Assembly (NCBI GenBank): GCA_913064995.1
Contig: CAJYBL010000003.1
Coordinates: forward strand, 1 to 34,296
DNA from: an uncultured Alphaproteobacteria bacterium
Lineage (GTDB): Bacteria; Pseudomonadota; Alphaproteobacteria; Puniceispirillales; Puniceispirillaceae
DNA: 34,296 bases
Direction: 5' to 3'
Shown: piece by piece, positions 8,723 to 29,204 of the stretch
Layout of the letters: the number at the start of each line of letters is the position of its first letter
Numbering within the stretch: position 1 is the first letter of the stretch
Notes under the pieces: generated by a model
Told to the model about the DNA's origin: nothing
What the model saw: only the letters and a program-made list of their open reading frames with translations
Database searches by the model: none
Position numbers and translations under genes: made by a program

Positions 8723-10270
8723 ATGCCAGAATCAAATCACAACGCTGCGCATTATTTTATCGAAACACACCTCGCAGCTGGTCGGGGCGAGAATATAGCC
8801 TTTATTGAATCTACCAGCGGCAAGCGTATTAGCTATGGCACATTATCAGCCAATAGCGGCAAAGTTGCTGGTGCGTTAACTAAAGCCGGCATCAAGCGTG
8901 AAGAACGCGCTGCTATTTTGATGCTGGATTCTATTGATTGTGTTGAAGTTTTCTGGGGCTGTTTAAAGGCCGGCGTGATCGCCGTGCCAATTAATACGCT
9001 CCTGGCCAGTGCCGTCTATGAAACAATCCTTGGTGATTGCCGCGCGAGCTGCCTTTTTGTGTCAGCCGCCTTGCTGGAAGTGGTGAAACCAGTTTTGGCC
9101 AAAAACAGCCACATACGCAAAGTAATTGTGGTAGGTGATCACGTGCTAAAGGATGGATTTGAGAGCTATGAGAGCTTTACCCATGGGGCGCATGAACAGG
9201 AAGCTGTGTTGGTTAGCGCTGACGAGCCAGCCTTCTGGCTATACTCATCCGGATCAACCGGCCAGCCAAAAGGTGTTCGGCATGTTCATGGTAACCTTCA
9301 AGCCACATCAGACACCTACGGCGCCAAAATCCTGGGCTTAATTCAAAGTGACGTTGTATTTTCCGCTGCAAAATTGTTCTTTGCATATGGTCTCGGCAAT
9401 GCCATGACCTTTCCAATGGCAGTTGGCGCAACCACAATCTTGTTTGATGGGCGCCCAACTCCACCTGCGGTAATGGAGATTTTTGCTGGAAACCCAGCCC
9501 CAACAATCTTCTGCGGCGTGCCAACACTGTTTGGCGCAATGCTTGTGCATTGTGATCCGGTGGAGAAGCCAGAACATCAACTACGATTATGCATTTCCGC
9601 TGGCGAGGCCCTGCCTGAAGAAATTGGCAAAAAATGGGAGCAAAAATTTGGTACCGAGATTTTGGATGGGGTTGGGTCAACCGAAATGTTACATATCTTT
9701 TTATCAAACCGACCAGGCGATGTTGTTTATGGCACATCAGGGGTGGCTGTACCGGGCTATGAATTGCGCCTTGTAGATGAGGCCAATAGAGATGTTGGGA
9801 TTGGCGAAATAGGCGAACTTTTGGTGTGCGGCGACTCCGCAGCCGAAGGCTATTGGAACCAACGAGCAAAAAGCCGCGCCACTTTTGAGGGCCGGTGGAC
9901 CCGCACAGGCGACAAATATGAGATTAATGCAAAAGGTCGCTATATCTATTGTGGCCGCACCGATGACATGTTCAAGGTGTCTGGTATCTGGGTATCACCT
10001 TTTGAAGTCGAACAAGCTCTTTTAACCCACCCCGCTATCCTTGAAGCCGCCGTGGTTGCCGCGATTGATGACGATAAATTATTAAAGCCAAAAGCCTATA
10101 TCGTGCTCCGAAATAGCGCTAGCTCTGATGGGCTGGAGAATAGCATAAAGACCCATGTGAAAGAACAGGTTGGTAAATGGAAATATCCACGCTGGATTGA
10201 GGTGATGGAAGAATTGCCAAAAACCGCAACTGGCAAAATTCAACGCTTTAAATTGCGGTCGCAAAACTAA
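8723..10270 (+). CDS. Benzoate-CoA ligase family protein (likely catabolic)
   Basis: 515 aa; 'YSSGSTGQPKGVRHVHGNL', 'CISAGEALPEEIG', 'GVGSTEMLHIFLSNRPG', 'GRTDDMFKVSGIWVSPFEVE', C-terminal 'PKTATGKIQRFKLR'. Resembles BadA/BclA-type ligases. Confidence 0.85.
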   Translation: MPESNHNAAHYFIETHLAAGRGENIAFIESTSGKRISYGTLSANSGKVAGALTKAGIKREERAAILMLDSIDCVEVFWGCLKAGVIAVPINTLLASAVYETILGDCRASCLFVSAALLEVVKPVLAKNSHIRKVIVVGDHVLKDGFESYESFTHGAHEQEAVLVSADEPAFWLYSSGSTGQPKGVRHVHGNLQATSDTYGAKILGLIQSDVVFSAAKLFFAYGLGNAMTFPMAVGATTILFDGRPTPPAVMEIFAGNPAPTIFCGVPTLFGAMLVHCDPVEKPEHQLRLCISAGEALPEEIGKKWEQKFGTEILDGVGSTEMLHIFLSNRPGDVVYGTSGVAVPGYELRLVDEANRDVGIGEIGELLVCGDSAAEGYWNQRAKSRATFEGRWTRTGDKYEINAKGRYIYCGRTDDMFKVSGIWVSPFEVEQALLTHPAILEAAVVAAIDDDKLLKPKAYIVLRNSASSDGLENSIKTHVKEQVGKWKYPRWIEVMEELPKTATGKIQRFKLRSQN

Positions 10271-11082: not shown

Positions 11083-11354
11083 TCCCCAATCCGATGAATC
11101 CGCATAAGCAGCAGGCCAGCTTGAGGACTATGCTGCGCAATGAATAATTTGACTGGTGGTTGTATAAGAATAATGGAAATCGATAATTCAGATGTAACAA
11201 TTTTGCTAGGCGGATTAATTGATAGATTGACAAATGCTTAAGGGGTTATTGTTCTGTGTTATCCAACAAAGTAATTATTGCCTAACATGCAAACCGAATT
11301 TCTGAAGGTTTTGAATTGCGACAAGCTGCCCTTTATGACCTTAAGGAGATAAGA

Positions 11355-11597
11355 ATGGATATACGAAATGTTATTCAAAGCCAACTTAAACGAGTGGTTG
11401 CTGAACATTCACCAATGCCTTTCCCAGAGAATATAGAAGATGATGACGAGTTGGACCTCTTTGGCCTCGATTCATTGGCATTTATGGAATTACTTATTGG
11501 TGTCGAAAAAGAGTTGGGTTACATCCCGCGGACAATTCTTGAGGGCGACCTCTATCCAGAAACTTTTGGCGAGTTGATCTCAGCCTATGACGCTTAA
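11355..11597 (+). CDS. Freestanding acyl carrier protein
   Basis: About 80 aa acidic protein with 'DLFGLDSLAFMELLIGVEKELGY' (phosphopantetheine Ser in GLDSL). Good SD 'aaggag' before ATG 11355; the ORF-track start 11316 is probably too long. Confidence 0.85.
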   Translation: MDIRNVIQSQLKRVVAEHSPMPFPENIEDDDELDLFGLDSLAFMELLIGVEKELGYIPRTILEGDLYPETFGELISAYDA

Positions 11598-11602
11598 GGA
11601 AC

Positions 11603-13156
11603 ATGATGAAAGCGGCAGACCTCCCAATATACTACAATATTTGTGAGATACTTGAGCATAATCTTGAGCATCGTGGAGATAAGATCGCGCTGTTTAGCGA
11701 GAACGGCTCCTTTACTTTTCGTGAGGTCTCAGAACAAGTAAACAGAGTAGGGAATGCCCTCATTCGATCAGGTGTACAGTTTGGCGAATGTGTTGCTATT
11801 TTATGTCCAGATCGGCCGGAATGGGTGAGCGTATTTTTTGCTACAGCCAAAATTGGTGGGGTTGCTCTTGGGCTGAACACGCTTCTTAAGACTGATGAAT
11901 ACGACTACATTCTCAAAGATGCACGTGTCAAAATCCTAGTGGTCCATGATAGTCTTAAAGCATTAGTTGAACCTATCATTAAAAAACATAACACCTTGAT
12001 TAAGGTTATTATCATTACAGATAATAAAAGCATGAAATGCACAACTTTTACTGACTGGATCGGCGGGGAAAAAAGTGAACTTGATTCAGCGACCACGCAT
12101 CGCGAGGATTTTTGCTCACTACACTATTCGAGTGGTACAACAGGTGTGCCAAAGGGTGTCTTGCACATGCACAAGGATTACCCTTTGATTGCGCAGTTAT
12201 CGGGTGTAAACCTATTCGGCATCACCGAGAATGATCGAACATTTTCAGTCGCTAAGCTATTCTTTGTCTATGGAATTGGCGGAAACCTGATCTTTCCGTG
12301 GTACGTGGGAGCAAGCTGCGTTCTCTATGCTGGACCACCCCGACAAGCAGCAGCGGTTCTTAAAGCGATCACCACTTTCAAACCCACTGTATTTGTCTCC
12401 GTCCCCACCATTTACAGCGCCATTCTTTCTTTACCCAATTTTTATAAACGCTACGATATTAGGTCGCTAAGGATGTGCATTTCTGCCGGCGAACCGTTGC
12501 CCTTGCAGACATGGAACACCTGGAGAGACACTACCGAGATTGAGATTCTTGATACGATCGGATGCACTGAAACATATCATACTTTTATGGCAAATAGGCC
12601 AGGAGAAGTGCGGCCAGGCAGCAGTGGCAAACCAATAAGAGGATATGATGTACGACTTGTAGACGATGAAGGTAAAGATGTTCAAGCAGGCGTGGTCGGC
12701 AACCTGATGGTTCGGGGAGAATCGACAGCTCTTTTTTACTTGCATCAGTCAGAAAAAACACGGCACTCATTTCGAGGTGAATGGCTGTTTACTGGCGATC
12801 AGTATTTGCAGGATAAGGATGGCTACTATTGGCATAAAGGGCGCGTAGATGACATGCTGAAGGTTGGTGGACTCTGGGTTTCGCCGATTGAAATTGAGGA
12901 AGTGCTGAGCGGGCATGACAGTGTTGCTGACTGCGCAGTTGTCGGACATTATGACAATGCCGGACTTTTAAAGCCCAAAGCTTTTGTTTGTCTGCGGAAT
13001 GGAGTCGAGCCTTCAGACGAGTTGTTCGAACAACTCGTCAAGCTATGCGCAAAAACTCTTGACGCCCACAAGCGCCCAAGATGGCTTGAGTTCAATAATG
13101 ATCTGCCACGCACCTCGACGGGCAAGTTACAGCGTTTCAAATTGCGAGAGCAATAA
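11603..13156 (+). CDS. Benzoate-CoA ligase-like adenylate-forming enzyme (possible aryl-ACP ligase)
   Basis: 517 aa; 'HYSSGTTGVPKGVLHMHKDYP', 'CISAGEPLPLQTW', 'TIGCTETYHTFMANRPGEVRPGSSG', 'GRVDDMLKVGGLWVSPIEIE', 'PRTSTGKLQRFKLRE'. Paralogue of 8723..10270; 5 nt downstream of the ACP gene. Confidence 0.85.
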   Translation: MMKAADLPIYYNICEILEHNLEHRGDKIALFSENGSFTFREVSEQVNRVGNALIRSGVQFGECVAILCPDRPEWVSVFFATAKIGGVALGLNTLLKTDEYDYILKDARVKILVVHDSLKALVEPIIKKHNTLIKVIIITDNKSMKCTTFTDWIGGEKSELDSATTHREDFCSLHYSSGTTGVPKGVLHMHKDYPLIAQLSGVNLFGITENDRTFSVAKLFFVYGIGGNLIFPWYVGASCVLYAGPPRQAAAVLKAITTFKPTVFVSVPTIYSAILSLPNFYKRYDIRSLRMCISAGEPLPLQTWNTWRDTTEIEILDTIGCTETYHTFMANRPGEVRPGSSGKPIRGYDVRLVDDEGKDVQAGVVGNLMVRGESTALFYLHQSEKTRHSFRGEWLFTGDQYLQDKDGYYWHKGRVDDMLKVGGLWVSPIEIEEVLSGHDSVADCAVVGHYDNAGLLKPKAFVCLRNGVEPSDELFEQLVKLCAKTLDAHKRPRWLEFNNDLPRTSTGKLQRFKLREQ

Positions 13157-13159
13157 CCT

Positions 13160-16100
13160 ATGGCTAAGGAAACACAGCAACATAAAAACCAGGCAAGAGC
13201 ACTCAAAGACGCAAATGCTGAAATAGCACGTTTACGCGCAAAGGTTTCCAAACAAGCTGATGGAAAAGGCTTACGGGAACCTATTGCGATAATTGGCATC
13301 GGCTGTCGTTTTCCCGGAGGCGTCCGCACGCCTCAGGACTTTTGGAGCCTGTTGAAATCAGGCCGCGACGTGTTGCGCGACATTCCAAGTGATCGTTGGG
13401 ACATCGATGAGCACTATAATCCAGCTGTGACTGTCCCCGGTAAAATATATGTTCGACAAGGTTATTACCTCGACAACATCGACCAATTTGATCCGCAGTT
13501 CTTTGGTTTATCCCCCCGTGAAGCAGAAAGCCTTGATCCACAACAACGTTTGGTCATGGAGGTCTGCTGGGAGACTTTAGAGCATGCTGGAATAGCACCC
13601 ACCTCACTCAAAGGTGGAAAAACTGGGGTTTTTGTCGGCCAATATTGGGATGATTATTCATCACAGCGGATCTATTGCACTGATAATCGTGACATTGATC
13701 GTTACGCCCAACTCAGTGCTCTTCGTGGTCTCACGGCAGGTCGAATCTGTCATATTTTAGACTCACACGGTCCAGCAATCCAGTTGGACACTGCGTGCTC
13801 ATCTTCGTCTCTTGCGGTACATTTGGCATGCCAATCCTTAAGAAGCGGTGAGAGCGACGTTGCGCTAGCAGGTGGCGTTAGCTTAATACTAGCGCCGGAG
13901 CATTTGATCGGCATCTGTCAGATGGCGGCGTTGTCGCCAGACGGGAGGTGCAAGACTTTTGATGCGCGCGCTGATGGGTTTGGACAGGGTGAAGGCTGCG
14001 GCATGATCGCATTGAAGCGGTTAGCCGATGCGCAAGCTGATGGAGACAATGTGCTTGCCGTCGTCCAAGGATCTGCAGCTAATCACGACGGTCAAGCCCG
14101 CACCGTGACGACACCAAGCGGGCCAGCCCAACGCGCTATGTTGAGGGATGCACTCAAGGATGCAGGAATAGAACCACATCAGGTTGATTTCATTGAAACT
14201 CATGGCACGGGGACGCCACTTGGTGATCCGATTGAGGTCAGCGCAATTGGACGAGTGTTTTGTGAAGGCCGAGAAAATGCGCTTTATTTAGGAGCAGTTA
14301 AGGCCAATGTCGGACATCTTGACTCCGCTGCTGGAATCGCAGGTTTAATTAAAGTTGTATTATCACTACAACATAAAACCATACCGCTACATCGCAATTT
14401 TTCTGAACCTAACAGGCATATCCCATGGGATGATTGGCCCATAAAGATTCCATTAGAAAACACCGCTTGGGAGGGCAAAGAACGCTTTGCTGGAATTAGT
14501 GCGTTTGGAATGAGTGGCACGAATGTTCACATAATTGTTGGGGAAACTCCAGAGCCAAGCATGCCCAATGAAGAGCAGCGCTCAACCTCTAAAACGAAAC
14601 AGCTGTTTACGGTTTCTGCTCGTACAGAGGGAGCTTTGTCTGATCTTGCAAAACGTTATGCTGATATGCTGGGCGCTGAAGGGAGTTTGGAAGAAGTGAA
14701 CGTTGCGAGCCTCTGTTATTCAGCGGCCACTGGGCGATCTCATTTTTCTTACCGAGCTGCGTTTGCAGCAGACGATCCGTTGAAGCTCGCACATGCACTA
14801 AATGATTTTGCGGCTGGCAGAGCTACACCCGGCGCAATAACTGGGGTCGCCGGACGTCGGGCGCCTAAATTAGCTCTCCTTTTTACCGGCCAAGGTGCTC
14901 AATACATAGGGATGGGCAAAAAGCTCTATGAAGCTCACCCAATTTTCAAAGCGACACTTGACCGATGCGCCAAGCTTTTTGAAAGCCACCTAGAGCATCA
15001 CCTGCTCGAGGTTATGTGGACAAGTGAGACTTTGCATCAAACTGAATATACGCAACCTGCTCTTTTCGCGATCGAGTATTCACTTGCAAAGCTCTTTGAA
15101 GAATGGGGCATAGTACCCGATTTGCTTTTGGGGCATAGCATTGGTGAATATGCAGCTGCATGTGTTGCTGGCGTATTTACACTTGAGGATGCGGTTCGTA
15201 TGGTAGCTGCGCGGGGGCGTTTAATGCAGTCCTTGCCTATGGGCGGGAGAATGATAAGCGTAGTCATTGATGAGGTCTCCGCCAAAGCTGCTATCACCGA
15301 ATTTCCAACTGTTTCTATTGCTGCTGTAAACGCACCACAAAGTATTGTTCTTTCGGGTGAAGGCCAAGCAATTGATACGATTGTGGGCCGTTTAGACAGT
15401 CAAGGCATCAAAACAACTGAACTGAGCGTCAGCCATGCGTTTCACTCACCATTGATGGAACCGATCCTTAATGACTTTCGTATTATTGCGGAAAGCGTAG
15501 ATTTCAGCCCACCAAACATCACACTACTCTCTAATGTCACAGGCAAACCCTGGAATGATACTCAACTTTCGGCTGACTACTGGGTAGAACATCTACGGGC
15601 CACAGTTAGATTTGCAGCCGGTATTGATTATGCAAAGTTCAAGAAGTTTGAGGTGTTTGTAGAAATTGGTCCTAAACCAACTCTTCTTGGGTTAGGCCGT
15701 AACTGCGTTCCGCCTGAATTTGGTACGTGGCTACCTAGTTTGAAACCGAACTCCGAATGGTCAACGTTATTAGACTGCTTGCGACAACTTTATGTGATCG
15801 GTAGTGATATTAATTGGGAAAAAATTTTCACACTGTCTAAATTAAAACGCACTCAATTGCCAAACTACCCCTGGCAGTATCGCCGCTGCTGGACTGAAGT
15901 AGTTTCGAGTGGTAGGAGTGAGCCAAGACTTCATCCACTAATCCACCAAAGAATTGAAAATGCTAGCAAGAGTAGAATTTTTGAGTCGACCTTAAGTGCC
16001 AATAGTCCGGCTTATCTCAGTGATCATCGAGTTTTTGGCACTGTAGTTTTCCCTGCCAGTGCATTTTTTGAGATGGCGACAGCTGTTGCTAGTTTGATTT

Positions 16101-19100
16101 TTGAACAAGATGAGGTCACATTAAAAAATGTCACTATAGGTCATGCTTTAGTGCTATCTGACGAGCCAATTAAGGTGCAGACAATCGCCACACCAAACGG
16201 TCACCATTTCGATTTTGAAATTTTTAGCCGTTCTGCCAAAGACACCAAAGGGGAGTGGACTCGGCATACAGCAGGAACACTCGAACGCAGGCTCCCAAGC
16301 CCAGCGGCCTTCATCAATATCGACGAAGAATTAACGCATTTCACCCTGCCAGTGGACATAGATGAGCTCTCAGCGTGGTTTGAGGCTCGAGGCCTGGAGT
16401 ATTTGCCACGCTTTGAGGGAATCGAAGCTATATTTATGCAAAATAGAGAGCCTAATGATAAGTTTGGTAGCGCCATGGCACATATCAGGCTGCCAGTTGA
16501 GGCTATCTTGACTGGTGATACTTACCACCTGCACCCCGTAATTACCGACTCCAGCTTCAGGATTGCGGAAGCCATTTTTCAAGAAGAAGAAGCTAATCGG
16601 GTCTTCCTACCGTTTGGTGTATCAGGTGTCAGCTGTGACCACTCCACCACTGGATCGGTTTGGGTTAAAGTAACTGCGCGGCAAAAAGCCAAAAGTCGAG
16701 TTGTAGATCTACAACTCTTTGGTGAAACCGGCGAACGCGTTGCTACAATAGAGGGGCTAACAATGCGTCCCGTCCCCATTTCTAGTCTGAAAAATAGTAT
16801 AGCTGAATTTAATACAAAAAGCGCCGCATTTACTGATCTCTTGTATTATCCCGCATGGGAAGAGGTAGAATTATCTGAGCCCACTGCGGAGGCAGGAAAC
16901 TGGCTCTTATTGCCAGACAATGGTTACGTATCTGAGCCTCTCTTTTCAGCGCTAAAAGAAGCCGGGCACAAGGTGCATATTGCCACCTCAGCAGAAGCTG
17001 CATGTGAATTTTTAAGCTCAGAAAAAGCGCACGAACTAAATGGGGTTCTGCACCTTTGGGGAATGGACTTGAGCGCAGAAAATCCAGACGCCTCTCTTCT
17101 CGCAAGCTTAGTAGTCGTACAATCATGCATTGAAAATAATGTTTCTGTAAAAAACTGGTTTATAACAAAAGGAGCACAGGCAGTTGTCTCACACGACGCC
17201 GTATCGCCCTGGCAGAGCCAGTTTTGGGGCTTTGGACGAACATTGCAAGCCGAGAATCCGGGAGGGTTTGGTGGTTGTATCGACCTTGATCCAAATGGCA
17301 CCAAAACATTGAGCGGGCTCAAAATGCTTATCAGCGAACTATGTTGCACGAGTGGCGAGACAGAAATTGCTTTTCGTCAAGAGGCGAGGCACATTGGATA
17401 CCTCTCAAAATCAGGGCCTTTCAAAGGCCTGCAGCCTTCCTTGAAACTAGACCCAAATGCTTCTTACCTAATAACCGGTGGGCTAGGTTCACTCGGATTG
17501 CAAGTGGCAAAATACTTGGCAACTTGTGGCGCCCGTCACCTGGTTCTGACAGGTCGCAGTGGCGTTTCAACCGAATATCAACGTACTGCACTGCAAACTA
17601 TAAAGGCAGTCGGCGCTAAAGTTAAGGTCGTTTCCACGGACATCAGTAGCGCTGAAGGTGTCAAAAAGTTGCTAGCAACTCTGCCACGCCTGCAGGGGAT
17701 TGTTCATGCGGCAGGTGTTTTAGCTGATGGAATGTTAATGCAACAGAGCTCTGAAAGCTTTCAAAAAGTTGCTGGGCCAAAGGTTAGAGGCGCTTGGCAC
17801 TTGCACACGCAAACCCAAGATCGACCGCTAGACTTCTTTGTCCTTTTCTCTTCCGTTGCTAGTATTATTGGATCCCCGGGCCAATCAAATTACGCTGCTT
17901 CTAACGCTTTTATGGATGGATTAGCTCACTTTCGGAGAGAGCAAGGGTTGGCAGCAACCGCTGTAAATTGGGGGCCTTGGGCAGATGTTGGTATGGCCGC
18001 TTCTGATTTAGTAATGCAGCGTTTGATAAAAGATGGCTGGCAACCCATGAATGCTAGCGCGGGATGCGATTACATGGCACAACTTTTGACAGCACATGAT
18101 TTACCGCAGGCTGCCGTTTTGCCAGTTGACTGGAAGCAATTCGTCGCAAGCACCCCTGGAGCCAACCAATGGAGCTCATTAAAGCATTGCGTTCTTAAAG
18201 AGCAGGTAAGCCCGTTAGTTGATAATTCAGCAGAGGTCGCGGCACAGAATGTAAGAGATGCCGCACCTAATCAGCGCGTTGGCTTGATAAGCTCTTATCT
18301 TCTCAAACGTATCGCACAGACCTTGAGGGTTCCCGCTACTGACCTCGATGAACTTGCGAAACCTGGGGATTTAGGTGTCGATTCATTGAATGCCGTGGAG
18401 GTCCAAATTTGGGTCAAGAGTGATCTAAACGTAGAGCTCGGAGTTGAACAGCTTTTTACAACGTCAAGCATTAAAGATCTTGCCATTTCTATAGATCAAT
18501 TATTAAGGGGCGATCCGGGTGGAACTAAACTAGGGATAACGCCTTTATCTTCAAATCAAACTCGCTGGGTGATTTGCCCTCACCCTCGTCCAGCGGCGAA
18601 GCTTCAGCTCTTTTGTTTTCCATACGCTGGAGGAGGGGCATCCACATTTAAGGCATGGGGTGAGACATTTTCTGATCAAGTTGAACTTTGTCTCATTCAA
18701 ATGCCTGGACGTGAGGAGAGGCTCAGTGAACAATTGATTAAGGATATGCCACAGCTGGTCGACACCTTAGCGCAAGAGATCACGGCCTTTTCAAAAAAAC
18801 CATTCGCTTTTTTCGGTCACAGCATGGGTGCAATCGTGGCCTATGAAACAGCGCGGCGGCTAGAGTCTATGAGAGTTAGCCAACCGATACATCTATTCGT
18901 GTCAGCTCGAGCCGCTCCTCATTTGCAGGAAAATACTGATCTCCTCCGGTTTCTTGATGATGAGACTTTTGTCGATAGGTTACAGAAAACTTATGGTGCA
19001 GTCCCAGAGGCTATTCAAAAAAGTCCGGAGCTGAGAAAAATCTTTCTTCCTGTTCTTCGAGCCGATGTGGAGTTACTTGAAAAATATGAAGAGGTCTCCT

Positions 19101-19300
19101 CGGAACCTCTTGACTACCCTATAACAGCACTGGGTGGAATTAGTGACACCGCGATATCAAGAGCAAATCTAGAGGGTTGGCAGGCCCGAACAAGTGCCAA
19201 ATTCTCACATCATGAATTTCCAGGCAAACATTTCTACATAGATGACGAGCGCGAGGCAGTGTTGGCAGCCATCACAAATGATCTCGCTCACAGCCTCTAG
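13160..19300 (+). CDS. Type I polyketide synthase, KS-AT-DH-KR-ACP-TE
   Basis: 2046 aa. KS: 'DTACSSSS' (C213), 'ETHGTGTPLGDPIE', 'KANVGHLDSAAG'. AT: 'FTGQGAQY', 'GHSIGEYAAA', 'SHAFHSPLME'. DH: 'HRVFGTVVFP', 'HPVITD'. KR: 'YLITGGLGSLG', 'VLFSSVASIIGSPGQSNYAASNAF'. ACP: 'DLGVDSLNAVE'. TE: 'CFPYAGGGAS', 'GHSMGAIVAYE', 'GKHFYI'. Confidence 0.95.
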   Translation: MAKETQQHKNQARALKDANAEIARLRAKVSKQADGKGLREPIAIIGIGCRFPGGVRTPQDFWSLLKSGRDVLRDIPSDRWDIDEHYNPAVTVPGKIYVRQGYYLDNIDQFDPQFFGLSPREAESLDPQQRLVMEVCWETLEHAGIAPTSLKGGKTGVFVGQYWDDYSSQRIYCTDNRDIDRYAQLSALRGLTAGRICHILDSHGPAIQLDTACSSSSLAVHLACQSLRSGESDVALAGGVSLILAPEHLIGICQMAALSPDGRCKTFDARADGFGQGEGCGMIALKRLADAQADGDNVLAVVQGSAANHDGQARTVTTPSGPAQRAMLRDALKDAGIEPHQVDFIETHGTGTPLGDPIEVSAIGRVFCEGRENALYLGAVKANVGHLDSAAGIAGLIKVVLSLQHKTIPLHRNFSEPNRHIPWDDWPIKIPLENTAWEGKERFAGISAFGMSGTNVHIIVGETPEPSMPNEEQRSTSKTKQLFTVSARTEGALSDLAKRYADMLGAEGSLEEVNVASLCYSAATGRSHFSYRAAFAADDPLKLAHALNDFAAGRATPGAITGVAGRRAPKLALLFTGQGAQYIGMGKKLYEAHPIFKATLDRCAKLFESHLEHHLLEVMWTSETLHQTEYTQPALFAIEYSLAKLFEEWGIVPDLLLGHSIGEYAAACVAGVFTLEDAVRMVAARGRLMQSLPMGGRMISVVIDEVSAKAAITEFPTVSIAAVNAPQSIVLSGEGQAIDTIVGRLDSQGIKTTELSVSHAFHSPLMEPILNDFRIIAESVDFSPPNITLLSNVTGKPWNDTQLSADYWVEHLRATVRFAAGIDYAKFKKFEVFVEIGPKPTLLGLGRNCVPPEFGTWLPSLKPNSEWSTLLDCLRQLYVIGSDINWEKIFTLSKLKRTQLPNYPWQYRRCWTEVVSSGRSEPRLHPLIHQRIENASKSRIFESTLSANSPAYLSDHRVFGTVVFPASAFFEMATAVASLIFEQDEVTLKNVTIGHALVLSDEPIKVQTIATPNGHHFDFEIFSRSAKDTKGEWTRHTAGTLERRLPSPAAFINIDEELTHFTLPVDIDELSAWFEARGLEYLPRFEGIEAIFMQNREPNDKFGSAMAHIRLPVEAILTGDTYHLHPVITDSSFRIAEAIFQEEEANRVFLPFGVSGVSCDHSTTGSVWVKVTARQKAKSRVVDLQLFGETGERVATIEGLTMRPVPISSLKNSIAEFNTKSAAFTDLLYYPAWEEVELSEPTAEAGNWLLLPDNGYVSEPLFSALKEAGHKVHIATSAEAACEFLSSEKAHELNGVLHLWGMDLSAENPDASLLASLVVVQSCIENNVSVKNWFITKGAQAVVSHDAVSPWQSQFWGFGRTLQAENPGGFGGCIDLDPNGTKTLSGLKMLISELCCTSGETEIAFRQEARHIGYLSKSGPFKGLQPSLKLDPNASYLITGGLGSLGLQVAKYLATCGARHLVLTGRSGVSTEYQRTALQTIKAVGAKVKVVSTDISSAEGVKKLLATLPRLQGIVHAAGVLADGMLMQQSSESFQKVAGPKVRGAWHLHTQTQDRPLDFFVLFSSVASIIGSPGQSNYAASNAFMDGLAHFRREQGLAATAVNWGPWADVGMAASDLVMQRLIKDGWQPMNASAGCDYMAQLLTAHDLPQAAVLPVDWKQFVASTPGANQWSSLKHCVLKEQVSPLVDNSAEVAAQNVRDAAPNQRVGLISSYLLKRIAQTLRVPATDLDELAKPGDLGVDSLNAVEVQIWVKSDLNVELGVEQLFTTSSIKDLAISIDQLLRGDPGGTKLGITPLSSNQTRWVICPHPRPAAKLQLFCFPYAGGGASTFKAWGETFSDQVELCLIQMPGREERLSEQLIKDMPQLVDTLAQEITAFSKKPFAFFGHSMGAIVAYETARRLESMRVSQPIHLFVSARAAPHLQENTDLLRFLDDETFVDRLQKTYGAVPEAIQKSPELRKIFLPVLRADVELLEKYEEVSSEPLDYPITALGGISDTAISRANLEGWQARTSAKFSHHEFPGKHFYIDDEREAVLAAITNDLAHSL
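13277..14550 (+). other. PKS ketosynthase domain
   Basis: From 'EPIAIIGIGCRFPGG' to 'GMSGTNVHIIV'; Cys-His-His residues in DTACSSS / HGTGT / KANVGH. Confidence 0.93.
14867..15730 (+). other. PKS acyltransferase domain, predicted malonyl-CoA specific
   Basis: GHSIGE active site and the HAFH motif that marks malonyl specificity (methylmalonyl ATs usually carry YASH). Boundaries approximate. Confidence 0.85.
15932..16780 (+). other. PKS dehydratase domain
   Basis: H956 in 'HRVFGTVVFP' (HxxxGxxxxP) and D1130 in 'HPVITDSSFR'. Boundaries approximate. Confidence 0.8.
17455..18010 (+). other. PKS ketoreductase domain
   Basis: NADPH motif TGGLGSLG; catalytic Ser/Tyr/Asn in 'FSSVASIIGSPGQSNYAASNAF'. 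Boundaries approximate. Confidence 0.88.
18265..18500 (+). other. PKS internal acyl carrier protein domain
   Basis: 'LAKPGDLGVDSLNAVEVQIWVKSDLNVEL'. Boundaries approximate. Confidence 0.9.
18595..19297 (+). other. PKS C-terminal thioesterase domain (resembling type II/GrsT-like TEs)
   Basis: 'LQLFCFPYAGGGASTFKAWGETF', 'MPGREER', 'GHSMGAIVAYETARRLE', C-terminal 'FPGKHFYIDDE'. Confidence 0.85.
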
Positions 19301-19318: not shown

Positions 19319-20608
19319 ATGACTGATGATAAGGTGATCATTGCCGGAGGGGGGATTGGTGGGCTGACTTTAGCCTTAACGCTTCACCAAATTGGGGTAC
19401 CGTTTCTAGTGTTGGAAACATCGCATACCATGCGTCCGCTTGGGGTAGGTATAAACATTCAACCTAATGCGGTTAGGGAACTGTTTGAATTGGGCCTTAC
19501 TTCTGAAGTGCTGGGCACAATCGGCGTGTCCGCCAAAGAGTGGGCCCTGGTTGGACTAAATGGCCGAGAAGTCTACTCAGAGAAACGCGGTTTGGATGCT
19601 GGATACAAGTGGCCCCAATTCGCTGCCCACCGCGGCGAGCTACTAATGCTCCTTTATAGAACTTTGATAGAGCGTGCAGGCGCAGAGTCTGTGATGCTGG
19701 ATGCGAGAGTTGATAAATATATCAAGCGACCCTCCGGAGAGGTGGACGTATCAGTAAAAGGAAGTGATGGTTCACGGTTTCAAATTTCAGGTAGCTTGGT
19801 AATTGGTGCGGACGGGATCCATTCTGCCGTGCGTGCCCAAATGCACCCAGGTCAACCCCCAATCCACTGGGGTGGTGCTATCATGTGGCGCGGCACAGTT
19901 CGCGCAAAGCCTTTACGCACAGAATCATCCTTCATCGGTCTCGGCACCCATCAGCATCGTATGGTGATTTATCCGATTTCAAAGCCAGCGGCTGATGGAA
20001 CGGTTCTTACTAATTGGATTGCTGAACTTACAATTGATAGCAATGAAGGCTGGTTAGATGACACTTGGTTCAAAGAAGTACCAATTGATAGCTTTGCACA
20101 CCATTTTGAGGGTTTTCGTTATGATTGGCTCGACGTTCCAACAATGCTGAACAAATCAGAATGCGGCTACATGAACCCAATGATTGATCGTGACCCAGTC
20201 GCAACTTGGGTGGATGGACCAGTTGCATTGATGGGTGATGCTGCACACGCAATGTATCCAACAGGATCTAATGGAGCGAGCCAAGCAATAGTTGATGCTA
20301 GGGTTATAGGCGCGGCGATCCTCGAACAGGGTTTAACTCCTGATGCCCTCAAATCATATGATGACCTATTGTGTAAGAAAGTATCAGAACTAGTGCTCCG
20401 AAATCGATCGGCTGGCCCGTTTGGCCTGCTTGATATTCTGAACGATAGATGTGGTGGGGTTTTCGAAAACATAGAGACCGTAATTCCTTTGGAGGAAAGA
20501 AACGAGTTTATGAGCACATACAAGACGGCAGCTGGCTTTGCAATCGAGGCTTTAAATGAAGCGCCGGCAACGATTGCTCCAAATGCCAAGTTCACGCAGC
20601 TCGAATGA
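19319..20608 (+). CDS. PhzS-like FAD-dependent monooxygenase
   Basis: 429 aa; 'IIAGGGIGGLTLAL', 'RPLGVGINIQPNAVREL', 'FAAHRGELLMLLY', 'VIGADGIHSAVR', 'ALMGDAAHAMYPTGSNGASQAI'. 18 nt after the PKS stop. Confidence 0.87.
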   Translation: MTDDKVIIAGGGIGGLTLALTLHQIGVPFLVLETSHTMRPLGVGINIQPNAVRELFELGLTSEVLGTIGVSAKEWALVGLNGREVYSEKRGLDAGYKWPQFAAHRGELLMLLYRTLIERAGAESVMLDARVDKYIKRPSGEVDVSVKGSDGSRFQISGSLVIGADGIHSAVRAQMHPGQPPIHWGGAIMWRGTVRAKPLRTESSFIGLGTHQHRMVIYPISKPAADGTVLTNWIAELTIDSNEGWLDDTWFKEVPIDSFAHHFEGFRYDWLDVPTMLNKSECGYMNPMIDRDPVATWVDGPVALMGDAAHAMYPTGSNGASQAIVDARVIGAAILEQGLTPDALKSYDDLLCKKVSELVLRNRSAGPFGLLDILNDRCGGVFENIETVIPLEERNEFMSTYKTAAGFAIEALNEAPATIAPNAKFTQLE

Positions 20609-20782: not shown

Positions 20783-22039
20783 GTGTTAGAAAGTTTTTTT
20801 CCTAAGCCAAAACAGTTTTTCTTTTGTGCGGTAGCGTGGGCTTTGATAGGTGTCTTTTCATGGTATTTTGGCGGTAAGGAATTAGGGCAACTTTTTGGCT
20901 TTGATTTTCCCAAAAATGATGCCCCTCCGATAATTGGCTTAGGGCATTTCACAACGCCAGATTTCTTGTGGTTTTATATCTACTACTTCTTTTTCACCCT
21001 AATCTTTTATATCTTTTGGGCATCTTATTCTCCTCATAAATGGCAAGTGTGGTCTATTTTGGGGTCCGCATTGATATTATTTTTTACATATTATCAAGTC
21101 CAAGTGGCAGTTGCGGTCAACAATTGGTATCGCCCATTTTATGATGCAATTCAAAATGCACTGTCGGGCAGTTCTACGACTACAGCTTCTGATTTATATG
21201 GGTATATTTTCAGTTTTTTAATACTTGCGATGACTTATGTATTGATCTCAATAGCAACGAGTTTTTTTGTAAGTCATTATGTATTTAGGTGGCGTACCGC
21301 GATGAATGATTTTTACACAGCCAGATGGACATTGGTGCGTCACATTGAGGGCGCCTCTCAGCGTATTCAAGAAGATACAATGCGTTTTGCATCAATTATG
21401 AAATCCCTTGGTGTTTCAATCGTTGACGCAGTCATGACGCTGATAGCTTTTCTACCAGTGCTACTACAGTTATCGGAAAACGTGAAAGAGCTGCCTATAG
21501 TTGGCTCGATAGCTTACCCTCTCGTTTATGCTGCGTTATTTTGGTCCATCTTCGGTACGATTCTAATGGTTGTTGCTGGCATTAAACTTCCTGGACTGGA
21601 GTTTAAAAACCAGCGCGTAGAAGCCGCCTTTAGAAAGGAGTTGGTTCTTGGTGAAGATGATGACAGCCGAGCGGAACCGCTTGCACTTAAAGAGTTGTTT
21701 GACAATGTTCGTAAGAATTATTTTCGTATATATATACACTACACGTATTTTAATCTGTTTCGAAATTTTTACTTTCAACTCAATAATCTTTTTGCCTACG
21801 TCCTTCTCATACCAACGATAGCATTAGGCCTAATTACCCTCGGTATAATGAACCAAATAATCAGAGCATTCAGTGAAGTAACCAGTTCTTTTCAATATTT
21901 GGTTCGATCATGGTCAACTATTATAGACTTAATTTCTGTATTTAAACGACTGCAGGCCTTTGAGGCAGCCTTTCTGGGCAAATCACCGCCCAAGCTGGAT
22001 TTAGAATATATCAACACTGAAGGAAGGGTAGACAAATAG
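20783..22039 (+). CDS. SbmA/BacA-like family transporter
   Basis: 418 aa polytopic protein; 'YRPFYDAIQNAL', 'FRWRTAMNDFYTARW', 'GASQRIQEDTMRFA', C-terminal 'SSFQYLVRSWSTIIDLISVFKRLQAFE'. GTG start. Confidence 0.85.
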   Translation: MLESFFPKPKQFFFCAVAWALIGVFSWYFGGKELGQLFGFDFPKNDAPPIIGLGHFTTPDFLWFYIYYFFFTLIFYIFWASYSPHKWQVWSILGSALILFFTYYQVQVAVAVNNWYRPFYDAIQNALSGSSTTTASDLYGYIFSFLILAMTYVLISIATSFFVSHYVFRWRTAMNDFYTARWTLVRHIEGASQRIQEDTMRFASIMKSLGVSIVDAVMTLIAFLPVLLQLSENVKELPIVGSIAYPLVYAALFWSIFGTILMVVAGIKLPGLEFKNQRVEAAFRKELVLGEDDDSRAEPLALKELFDNVRKNYFRIYIHYTYFNLFRNFYFQLNNLFAYVLLIPTIALGLITLGIMNQIIRAFSEVTSSFQYLVRSWSTIIDLISVFKRLQAFEAAFLGKSPPKLDLEYINTEGRVDK

Positions 22040-22127
22040 CGCACACTAAAATGGTAAGGCTACCAATTATTCTTTTCGAAGTTTGGGTTGTCTTTGCGCG
22101 CTACCTTTTTTGTGGCAAGGTCTCCTT

Positions 22128-22943
22128 ATGATCACGCCTATGGCCATTGAAATTCCTACCGCTGCTGACAGTCATGCAACGCGGTTTTCTACTGCTATCA
22201 CCCGTCTTCCAGCGGCTTCTGCTATTAATGGCCTGAGAACCCAAAACACCGGTGCAGTTGATATTAATTTGATGGCCAAGCAGCATAATGATTATCAAGA
22301 AGCACTGCGTTTAGCTGGCGCATTTGTTTTGGAATTACCTGCTTTACCTGAGTGCCCTGATGCTCAGTTTGTTGAGGATACAGCTCTTTGTTTACCCGGT
22401 TTGGCAGTGATGATGCGTCCTTGGGCCAAAACCCGAAAGGACGAAGTGGCACCCATGCGCGGCGCTCTCTCGCAATTCTTTGATGATATTGTTGATATTG
22501 TTGCTGGCTTTGTGGAAGCTGGCGATATTCTAGTCACACCATCAGAAGTGTTAGTGGGGCTGTCGGCTAGAACAGATCAAGCAGGGGCTGATCAATTGCA
22601 ATCTATTCTGAAGGCTCGCGGATACGGTATGCGGGTTATGAAAACACCGCCTGACATTTTGCATTTTAAAACTGATTGCAGCTTGATTGATGACCACTGT
22701 ATTCTGGCCACTGAACGTCTCACATTCAGTGGTTGTTTCGATGGCTATCAGACATTACTGGTGCCACCTGGTGAAGAGCCTGCCGCTAACGTGATACGCT
22801 TTAACAATCATATCATTATGCCCGCAGGTTACCCTAAAACAAGGTCCATGTTGCGGGTGGAAGGCTTTGAGGTGCTTACCGTAGGCAATAGTGAATGTGC
22901 CAAAATTGATGGTGGGATGTCTTGCCTATCCCTGCGCTTTTAG
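22128..22943 (+). CDS. Dimethylarginine dimethylaminohydrolase-like amidinotransferase-fold protein
   Basis: 'FVEDTALCLPGLAVMMRP', 'VEAGDILVTPSEVLVGLSARTDQAGADQL', 'LHFKTDCSLIDD', C-terminal 'GGMSCLSLRF' with putative catalytic Cys. ATG 22128 preferred over 22083. Confidence 0.85.
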   Translation: MITPMAIEIPTAADSHATRFSTAITRLPAASAINGLRTQNTGAVDINLMAKQHNDYQEALRLAGAFVLELPALPECPDAQFVEDTALCLPGLAVMMRPWAKTRKDEVAPMRGALSQFFDDIVDIVAGFVEAGDILVTPSEVLVGLSARTDQAGADQLQSILKARGYGMRVMKTPPDILHFKTDCSLIDDHCILATERLTFSGCFDGYQTLLVPPGEEPAANVIRFNNHIIMPAGYPKTRSMLRVEGFEVLTVGNSECAKIDGGMSCLSLRF

Positions 22944-23068
22944 CGCTGTATTTTCACCTCACAAATATACCTTTCACTGGTTTATTGGGATCAAACTTAT
23001 AGATAAAAATTAGATTAATCCTAAAGAGAATTGGCATCAAATTTTTATGATTTTCTCAAAATTAAATG

Positions 23069-24178
23069 CTAACGAAGTTTTTCTTCAACTTCATTCCACA
23101 AGTTTCTTAAGAGATCTTGCGCATTTATATCTTTGGCAAGGCTCGCTGCCTGCCCGGCCCACGCTTGCATACTATCTATTTTGTTTTCATCTGAAGCCTT
23201 AAGACGCATTCCCTCTGTCAGGGCACGTTGCACCGGATATGAGGTCGGAATTGGACTATCTTTTTTATGTGCTGCCTCAGTATAGCAATTTCTTATAGCT
23301 CGACCCGGCTTTCCAGAAAATGCTCTTGTTGTAATAGTGTCCTCGGGCCGGGTCACTTTTATTGCGTCTGCCCAAGATGATTTAATAGCTGCTTCTGGCG
23401 TCCTTAAGAGCCCCGTTCCAATCTGGACTGCTGACGCTCCCAACAAAATAGCTGCGGAAATACTCCTGCTATCAACTATTCCACCAGTAGCAATAAGCGG
23501 TATATCTACAACATCTGCGACCACTGGCAGCAGTGCCATTAAACCTGCGGACTGATCATAGGCAGTGTAAAAGTTACCTCGATGCCCACCCGCTTCAGAG
23601 CCTTGGACAACCAATGCATCAGCGCCTGCTTTCTGGGCCAATATAGCCTCGCTAACAGAGGTAACAGTTGCAAACCATCTAATACCCTGCTGTTTCATCT
23701 TTTCAATGAAAGCCGGCTCATACAATCCCATTATAGACGATATCACATTTGGACGGGCCTCAAGCATTGCTTCGCACTGCTCTTCAAAAGATATCTGTAA
23801 GTTACGTGCGTCAATTAAGGGGACTTCAGGTCCAAAATCAGACAAGAATTTCTTTAAGAGTTCCTCATGATTATAATCACGGGTGGGCTCTGGGCCAGGT
23901 ATCCAGCTGTTGAGCAAAAAAGCGCCATTTGTTCCAGATCTGAACTTCTCCGTCCAAATAGATATTTGGCCGGGCGTAAGAGGAAGCACGCCACAGGCAC
24001 CCATACCACCAGCATTGCTGACAGCAGCAGCAAGTTCTGCCGGGCATGCACCTGCCATCGGTGCCATAATGACAGGCATACCAAGCCCATAAGCACTGCA
24101 AAACGCTTCAGTTTTTTCAAAGTTCTTCATATGTTTTTCGTATGTTTTTTCAGTTGAAATTTGAGAATTTTTCAACAT
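23069..24178 (-). CDS. Nitronate monooxygenase / NPD (FabK-like) family FMN protein
   Basis: 369 aa; 'MPVIMAPMAGACPAELAAAVSNAGGMGACG', 'ADALVVQGSEAGGHRG', 'IPLIATGGIVDSRSISAAILLGASAVQIGTGLL'. Start may be the internal Met 'MKNFEKTEAF'. Confidence 0.85.
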   Translation of the reverse strand: MLKNSQISTEKTYEKHMKNFEKTEAFCSAYGLGMPVIMAPMAGACPAELAAAVSNAGGMGACGVLPLTPGQISIWTEKFRSGTNGAFLLNSWIPGPEPTRDYNHEELLKKFLSDFGPEVPLIDARNLQISFEEQCEAMLEARPNVISSIMGLYEPAFIEKMKQQGIRWFATVTSVSEAILAQKAGADALVVQGSEAGGHRGNFYTAYDQSAGLMALLPVVADVVDIPLIATGGIVDSRSISAAILLGASAVQIGTGLLRTPEAAIKSSWADAIKVTRPEDTITTRAFSGKPGRAIRNCYTEAAHKKDSPIPTSYPVQRALTEGMRLKASDENKIDSMQAWAGQAASLAKDINAQDLLRNLWNEVEEKLR

Positions 24179-27942: not shown

Positions 27943-28407
27943 ATGAAGATCAATATTGTTTATGCAACGATCCTAGGCACCTCGCAAATGGTAGCCGAAG
28001 AACTGGATGACGCATTGTCAGACAAATATGAAATTGATGTACAGGACATTTTGCAAATCAGTCCGGCCGAGCTTAGTGGTGACGCATTTTATGTATTCAT
28101 CTCCTCCACAACTGGTCATGGCGATATGCCTGATTCAGCATATGATTTTGTTGCTGCAATAAACGAAACAAAGGCCAATCTCTCAAAAATCAATTTTGCA
28201 ATTTTTGGACTTGGTGATCAGGGATATGCCGACACCTTCAATATGGGCAGCGAAAAACTGGCCGATTTGTTAAAAGGCGCAGGTGCTAAGCAAATTGGCG
28301 AACGTGGATTGTTTGATGCCTCAACTCTCGATATGCCAGAAGACATCGCCATTCCATGGCTAAAGGATATTCTTGCTGAAATGTCAGAACTTGCTGAAGT
28401 GGGATAG
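27943..28407 (+). CDS. Short flavodoxin / MioC-like flavodoxin-domain protein
   Basis: 154 aa; phosphate-loop-like 'YATILGTSQMVAEELDDAL', 'FISSTTGHGDMPDSAYDF', 'FAIFGLGDQGYADTF'. Confidence 0.85.
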   Translation: MKINIVYATILGTSQMVAEELDDALSDKYEIDVQDILQISPAELSGDAFYVFISSTTGHGDMPDSAYDFVAAINETKANLSKINFAIFGLGDQGYADTFNMGSEKLADLLKGAGAKQIGERGLFDASTLDMPEDIAIPWLKDILAEMSELAEVG

Positions 28408-28412
28408 GTACG

Positions 28413-29204
28413 GTGCGAGCGACTGTGCAGCCGGATAAAGCCAACCCAGAACTTGCCGAACTATCACTGCGTATTGGGGGTTACGTGCGCACATTGCGCC
28501 AAGCCCGAGGCATGTCCCGACGCATGCTAAGCAAAATTTCCGGCGTTTCTGAACGGTACCTAGCGCAACTAGAGACCGGTAACGGTAATGTTACCGTTGG
28601 CATACTTCATCGCCTTTCCCTTGTATTCGGCTGTGCCGTGGAGGATCTGGTTGCAGGTGGCGCGAAGCCAAATTTAAAAAAGGGAAATCGCCTGGCGCTT
28701 ATGGGGGTTCGAGGCGGAGGCAAGACAACACTTGGCACGGCGATTTCTGTCAAACACGACGTACCCTTTATCGAAATTTCCAAACAGGTCAGAGCCGTCA
28801 GTGGGATGGATGTCGGCGAAGTGATTTCTCTATACGGTCAAGAAGGTTTTCGCCGGTATGAGGAAGAGGCCATTGCCAGCATCATAGAAAACTATGACAA
28901 AGTGGTTATCGCAATTGGTGGCGGTATAGTGGAAACAAGGGAAAATTATAATCTTTTGTTGCATCATTTTCATACTGTATGGATAAAGGCGAGCGCCGCG
29001 GAACATATCGGGCGTGTTCGCGCCCAAGGTGATGAACGCCCGATGGCAGGGTTTGCCGCAGCAGAGGAACATTTGGCCAATATGCTCTCGCAGCGTAAAG
29101 CCGAATTCAACCGTGCTGATCTCGTTATAGATACCGGCGGAGTTCCTATTGACTACTCTGTTGCGAAATTAACGGAGTTAATAAGTAGCAACGCTATCTT
29201 GTAA
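28413..29204 (+). CDS. boxR: BoxR/BzdR-like transcriptional regulator (XRE HTH + shikimate-kinase-like domain)
   Basis: 263 aa; HTH 'LRQARGMSRRMLSKISGVSERYLAQLETGNGNVTVGIL', then P-loop 'GVRGGGKTTLG' and shikimate-kinase-like 'YGQEGFRRYEEEAI'. GTG start. Confidence 0.9.
   Translation: MRATVQPDKANPELAELSLRIGGYVRTLRQARGMSRRMLSKISGVSERYLAQLETGNGNVTVGILHRLSLVFGCAVEDLVAGGAKPNLKKGNRLALMGVRGGGKTTLGTAISVKHDVPFIEISKQVRAVSGMDVGEVISLYGQEGFRRYEEEAIASIIENYDKVVIAIGGGIVETRENYNLLLHHFHTVWIKASAAEHIGRVRAQGDERPMAGFAAAEEHLANMLSQRKAEFNRADLVIDTGGVPIDYSVAKLTELISSNAIL

Follow-up and report, generated by a model that had tools for sequence, protein, structure and literature searches.

The window, meaning the whole 34,296-nucleotide stretch analysed here, belongs to an uncultured SAR116 alphaproteobacterium and carries two ligase genes that the original prediction had placed at 8723-10270 and 11603-13156. 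Both positions proved right, and both genes are intact and exceed the curated cut-off (375.25 bits) of the NCBIfam family TIGR02262 (benzoate-CoA ligase), the 11603 ligase with 500 bits in the family profile search. The predicted neighbours were also recovered: the 8723 ligase gene shares one base (10270) with an alpha/beta hydrolase gene, and the 11603 ligase gene lies between the genes for an acyl carrier protein (ACP) and a polyketide synthase (PKS), with gaps of 5 and 3 bases, respectively. With an FAD monooxygenase gene, these three make up a four-gene cassette (Table 1).

Table 1. Positions of the cassette genes, their domains and motifs, and the neighbouring ligase in the window.
Feature	Position	Strand	Details
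Benzoate-CoA ligase of box cluster, outside cassette	8723..10270	+	515 aa; TIGR02262 711 bits; BadA structures 492 bits
Discrete acyl carrier protein	11355..11597	+	80 aa; phosphopantetheine Ser40 (codon 11472-11474); PF00550 1.9e-5
Aryl acid ligase (AMP-forming), AuaEII clade (predicted)	11603..13156	+	517 aa; TIGR02262, AuaEII 4wv3 match, tree, fold
Ligase P-loop SSGTTGVPK	12128..12154	+	residues 176-184; aligned with AuaEII, BadA, BCL
Pocket residues V222 and Y223 (AuaEII T221 and F222)	12266..12271	+	fixed in 8/8 cassette ligases; T and F in 12/12 AuaEII-like
Pocket residue T318 (AuaEII G316)	12554..12556	+	T in 8/8 cassette ligases, 0/70 others
Pocket residue T327 (AuaEII I325, BadA I334)	12581..12583	+	T in 8/8; I in 12/12 AuaEII-like; T in 2/58 others
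Ligase catalytic Lys508 (TGKLQR)	13124..13126	+	common to AuaEII and BadA
One-module type I PKS	13160..19300	+	2046 aa; Pfam; active-site motifs kept in orthologues
PKS KS domain (approximate)	13277-14542	+	Pfam
PKS AT domain (approximate)	14879-15760	+	Pfam
PKS DH domain (approximate)	15932-16777	+	Pfam
PKS KR domain (approximate)	17459-17986	+	Pfam
PKS ACP domain (approximate)	18296-18484	+	Pfam
PKS TE domain (approximate)	18605-19276	+	Pfam
FAD monooxygenase	19319..20608	+	PRK07538 subfamily 538 bits; nearest solved relatives 2rgj/3c96, 256 bits

The start of the ACP gene was set by orthologues and the Shine-Dalgarno sequence at the ATG at 11355, behind AAGGAG, while the TTG at 11316 merely marks where the mechanically called ORF begins; the protein carries the DSL serine. 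A promoter scan 5' of this gene gave no more hits than in shuffled sequences, and in GC content the cassette resembles the rest of the window except for a low value in the ACP gene. The PKS has no Pfam match to a loading domain or an ER, and the ACP, KS, AT, KR, and TE motifs are intact in the orthologues whose sequence covers them. In the DH, the HxxxG motif and the Asp are kept, with an R at a position that is usually Q or H. The AT carries HAFH, the motif usual for malonyl, and the solved relatives of the monooxygenase are structures of PhzS. A literature search on SAR116 with polyketide synthase returned no paper describing this PKS. On plasmids, the PKS has no close known relative (nearest about 39%, which was uninformative) and the ligase has no close copy, with only 40-41% relatives on Thermus plasmids.

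Kinship and aryl pocket of the ligase

The P-loop (SSGTTG), hinge K420, and K508 of the 11603 ligase are all intact in the alignment. The nearest solved structure is AuaEII (4wv3; 54% identity, 666 bits, residues 2-516), compared with 350 bits for the best benzoate-CoA ligase in the same structure-sequence comparison and 38-39% identity to the BadA/BclA-type enzymes. The predicted fold also has 4wv3 as its best structural match, in a model that is weak at the pocket loop (pLDDT <50 at 218-228). A maximum-likelihood tree of 28 proteins unites the cassette ligases in a single clade (100/100) and joins them to AuaEII and its Chloroflexi and Planctomycetota relatives in a 20-row clade (100/99), which places the 11603 ligase apart from the benzoate-CoA ligases; the AuaEII-like rows may or may not be a clade of their own (64/84). 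Among the enzymes compared by sequence, AuaEII is the closest characterised relative, and the ancestor of the ligase appears to have been an anthranilate-type rather than a benzoate-type enzyme. The original prediction had described both ligases as BadA-like with the same motif skeleton and the second as a benzoate-CoA-ligase-like enzyme probably repurposed as the PKS starter ligase. The likeness holds at the family level (TIGR02262) and not beyond it, with 38% identity and AuaEII rather than BadA/BclA as the nearest characterised relative; the starter role is favoured by a gene order kept in eight genomes, and the ancestry moves to the AuaEII/2-aminobenzoate-CoA ligase clade.

Several Chloroflexi MAGs (loci L023, L025, L027, L029, L030, and L033) have AuaEII-like ligases beside a two-domain flavoenzyme of 770-800 aa, some with a crotonase. 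The flavoenzyme is of the salicylyl-CoA 5-hydroxylase/oxidoreductase type (cut-off 1078 bits; 1077.9 and 1106.5 bits in the two tested), a group to which 2-aminobenzoyl-CoA monooxygenase/reductase belongs. These loci are probable 2-aminobenzoyl-CoA catabolic clusters, and the adjacency of such genes to the ligases supports an anthranilate reading of the AuaEII-like outgroup.

A review (PMC11253843) names F220, T221, F222, A293, G318, C319, H324, and I325 as the residues around anthranilate and T221 as directly binding its ortho-amino group; the AuaEII sequence used here has these residues at exactly the published numbers. In BadA, I334 borders the benzoate cavity (PMC7277991). Across 78 aligned ligases (8 cassette, 12 AuaEII-like, and 58 others), AuaEII positions 221/222/316/325 are V/Y/T/T in all eight cassette ligases and T/F/G/I in all 12 on the AuaEII side. 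The other 58 have A at 221 in 57, Y at 222 in 58, G at 316 in 56, and I at 325 in 48, and the combination V222-Y223-T318-T327 is absent from all 70 family members compared that lie outside the cassette. Position 316 corresponds to a substrate-lining position of NRPS adenylation domains and was for that reason counted with the pocket. Twelve of the 504 comparable columns are fixed in the cassette and AuaEII clades but different, and four of these fall within a nine-residue pocket set (p = 2e-5), a value that is biased because position 316 was added when it had already been seen to differ. Among the eight published pocket residues alone, three differ (p = 5e-4), and both p-values treat columns as independent.

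Each of the eight cassette ligases has V222 and T327 in place of the AuaEII pocket signature, which consists of I325 and of Thr221, the residue that binds the ortho-amino group. The Thr to Val change at 221 would keep the shape and lose the hydrogen bond, and the Ile to Thr change at 325 would add a hydroxyl at the position of BadA I334. Since these changes are fixed, the acid now used is probably something other than plain anthranilate or plain benzoate, and we infer a shift away from the anthranilate type, perhaps to an acid that carries a polar group at another ring position. Some aryl-CoA ligases take both benzoate and 2-aminobenzoate (PMC8388817), so the pocket may have changed without a change of acid. 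The original prediction had proposed aligning both ligases with BadA, BclA, EncN, and hydroxybenzoate ligases; in the alignment with BadA, BCL, and AuaEII, the pocket of the 11603 ligase differs from both the benzoate and the AuaEII type. The suggestion of a different aryl acid in the original prediction is supported by the fixed and unique pocket code, and hydroxybenzoate itself is a guess. Two other members share a Thr at the I325 position (L094 and L104), and their gene context gives no substrate hint. The L104 ORF (genome G718, L104:3515-5974) has 820 aa, matches TIGR02262 only at residues 295-795, and has approximately 290 residues before the match, which could be a fused domain or the result of an ORF called too long.

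The pocket bears directly on whether the 11603 ligase is an anthranilate-CoA ligase like AuaEII, whose anthraniloyl-CoA would be used by another enzyme or by the KS to give a quinolone-like or 2-aminocinnamoyl product. Its identity to AuaEII, the shared clade, and the anthranilate-type catabolic genes adjoining several Chloroflexi relatives agree with this, and anthranilate is made in tryptophan synthesis. However, the residue that binds the ortho-amino group is Val in every cassette ligase, F222, G316, and I325 are changed too, and no AuaE-like transferase lies beside the ligase, and we consider such an activity unlikely.

Distribution and flanks of the cassette

Searches covered a bacterial and archaeal genome scan, the family and order of the window, and 397 genomes of the family of Rhodobacteraceae AG-470-P20 (G137). 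The ACP-ligase-PKS order was found in eight genomes in total. In SAR116, the carriers are the window, AG-447-A06 (G017), and two from another SAR116 family, G065 and CPC30 (= G061 and G138). The others are AG-470-P20, a Sulfitobacter MAG (G139), G532 from the same family as AG-470-P20, and a 'Cellvibrionales' MAG of doubtful binning, in which the cassette lies on a 3.7-kb contig that stops inside the PKS gene. Within the window's order, the cassette ligase is present in just 4 of 136 genomes, and the cassette ligases share 71-85% identity with the 11603 ligase. The monooxygenase gene directly follows the PKS gene in at least five of the eight genomes; in CPC30, a contig end breaks the order and the monooxygenase gene starts another contig, and in G532, a transposase gene is downstream of the PKS gene and only a 63% monooxygenase relative is located elsewhere. 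Apart from this transposase, no mobile element joined to the cassette was identified. The sporadic occurrence is read as that of a mobile four-gene unit.

The flanks differ widely among the carriers. The window and G017 have box genes there, AG-470-P20 has a flotillin-type gene, the Sulfitobacter MAG a mannitol dehydrogenase gene, and G065 a flavin monooxygenase-like gene. In the window, genes for an SbmA/BacA-type peptide transporter (610 bits), a dimethylargininase-like protein, and a nitronate monooxygenase/FabK-like protein (20783-24178) lie between the cassette and BoxC and are not in G017. After BoxB, there is a flavodoxin-like gene and then a BoxR-like gene that combines an HTH with a shikimate-kinase-type part (27943-29204), as judged by eye and by orthologue order. 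In G017 (L012:9712-11820), a BenE-type benzoate transporter gene and a haem-dependent oxidative N-demethylase-like gene are located between the hydrolase gene and the cassette, and both are absent from the window (11083-11354).

This setting raises the question of whether the ligase is catabolic, i.e., a second benzoate- or hydroxybenzoate-CoA ligase that feeds the box pathway and lies beside the PKS gene by chance. In the window and G017, the ligase does lie within a stretch of benzoate-degradation genes, and in G532, the genes for BoxR, BoxB, BoxC, and the hydrolase (L061-L062, L113) are on the same contig (C57) as the cassette, approximately 22 kb away, so cassette and box genes may have some association beyond chance. 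On the other hand, the ligase travels with the ACP and PKS genes, the box loci of relatives lack an 11603-type ligase (G053 has box genes and the hydrolase gene without the cassette), and no BoxB turned up in four of the other seven carriers, which are incomplete drafts. A catabolic main role was rejected on these grounds and is very improbable, and the box genes beside the cassette in the window appear to be largely incidental.

The 8723 ligase is the enzyme that belongs to the box cluster. Its match scores are ordered the other way round from those of the 11603 ligase, with 410 bits to AuaEII and 492 bits to the benzoate-CoA ligases, and it groups with BadA and BCL in the tree (100/99). The two ligases are of the same family, on the same strand, and 1.3 kb apart, but the possibility that the second is a recent tandem duplicate without a new function, which had been named as grounds for abandoning the original prediction, is ruled out for practical purposes because the pair share 38% identity and fall on opposite sides of branches supported at 100/99.

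Proposed role and comparison with known systems

The reading that we hold to be likely is that the 11603 ligase is the dedicated starter-unit enzyme of the cassette and loads an aryl acid that primes the PKS. A PKS-starter role is well supported at the level of gene arrangement because the ACP-ligase-PKS order is kept in eight genomes with different neighbours. The ligase would adenylate an aromatic acid with ATP to acyl-AMP, and the acyl group would pass to the neighbouring discrete ACP in its holo form, straight from acyl-AMP or by way of a CoA thioester. The aryl-ACP would then prime the KS, which would extend the unit with malonyl units while KR and DH reduce and dehydrate, and the TE would free the product; the PhzS-like monooxygenase may oxygenate the acid or the product. 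Direct loading is favoured because the ACP gene directly precedes the ligase gene in every cassette locus, mostly overlapping by 1 or 4 bases, and because no cassette has a second ligase-like (AuaE-like) gene adjoining, although the closest characterised relative, AuaEII, forms the CoA thioester. The acyl acceptor, the identity of the acid, the number of extensions, and the product are each what we infer for the cassette.

Two absences, concerning the source of the acid and the activation of the ACP, tell against this reading. No aryl-acid synthesis gene was recognised next to any cassette copy, and chorismate lyase (PF04345) was not found in the organism's own draft genome. A phosphopantetheinyl transferase was not found in that draft or in AG-470-P20; it was found in G017, G065, the Sulfitobacter MAG, and G532, and the absences are therefore probably gaps in the drafts.

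A fuller version of the same reading, which we offer tentatively, is that the cassette is a laterally transferred unit of ocean bacteria, several of which have small genomes, whose ligase was shifted from anthranilate to a new aryl acid by few fixed pocket changes, loads the ACP directly, and may yield an undescribed small aromatic polyketide. With only four genes, the cassette is small enough to be expressed whole, so that the acid, acceptor, and product could be found directly. The anthranilate and cassette codes are a candidate natural specificity switch in the aryl-CoA ligase family, and comparing them may help to predict and engineer PKS starter units. The label 'benzoate-CoA ligase', next to benzoate degradation genes, may mislead.

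BadA and BclA belong to the same NCBIfam family as the cassette ligase, but they are catabolic and have a different pocket (FAY, G, and I). A closer parallel is aurachin priming in Stigmatella aurantiaca, where AuaEII, with AuaE and the ACP AuaB, has the same fold and catalytic motifs and primes a PKS through a discrete ACP. AuaEII differs at the four pocket positions, needs the second enzyme AuaE, and serves a type II PKS, a system with separate KS-alpha and KS-beta proteins, whereas the partner in the cassette is one reducing type I module without an AuaE-like neighbour, unlike aurachin-type priming. In aurachin RE and SS priming, RauF and SauE each activate the aryl acid and load the ACP as one enzyme (PMC10295502), which is the arrangement proposed for the cassette ligase; the likeness is drawn from the published description, and these enzymes serve a type II PKS with anthranilate. 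For enterocin priming, EncN, the precedent cited in the original prediction, is described as a ligase that activates an aryl acid and passes it to an ACP with no CoA intermediate (PMC12664062), so that EncN, RauF, and SauE are published precedents for direct ACP loading. The cassette resembles it, by that description and by the adjacent conserved ACP only, in pairing an aryl acid ligase with a discrete ACP, and differs in that the EncN acid is benzoate and its PKS is type II. Priming a PKS with an aryl unit by way of a discrete ACP is a known mode, and the cassette would join it to one reducing type I module within a mobile unit.
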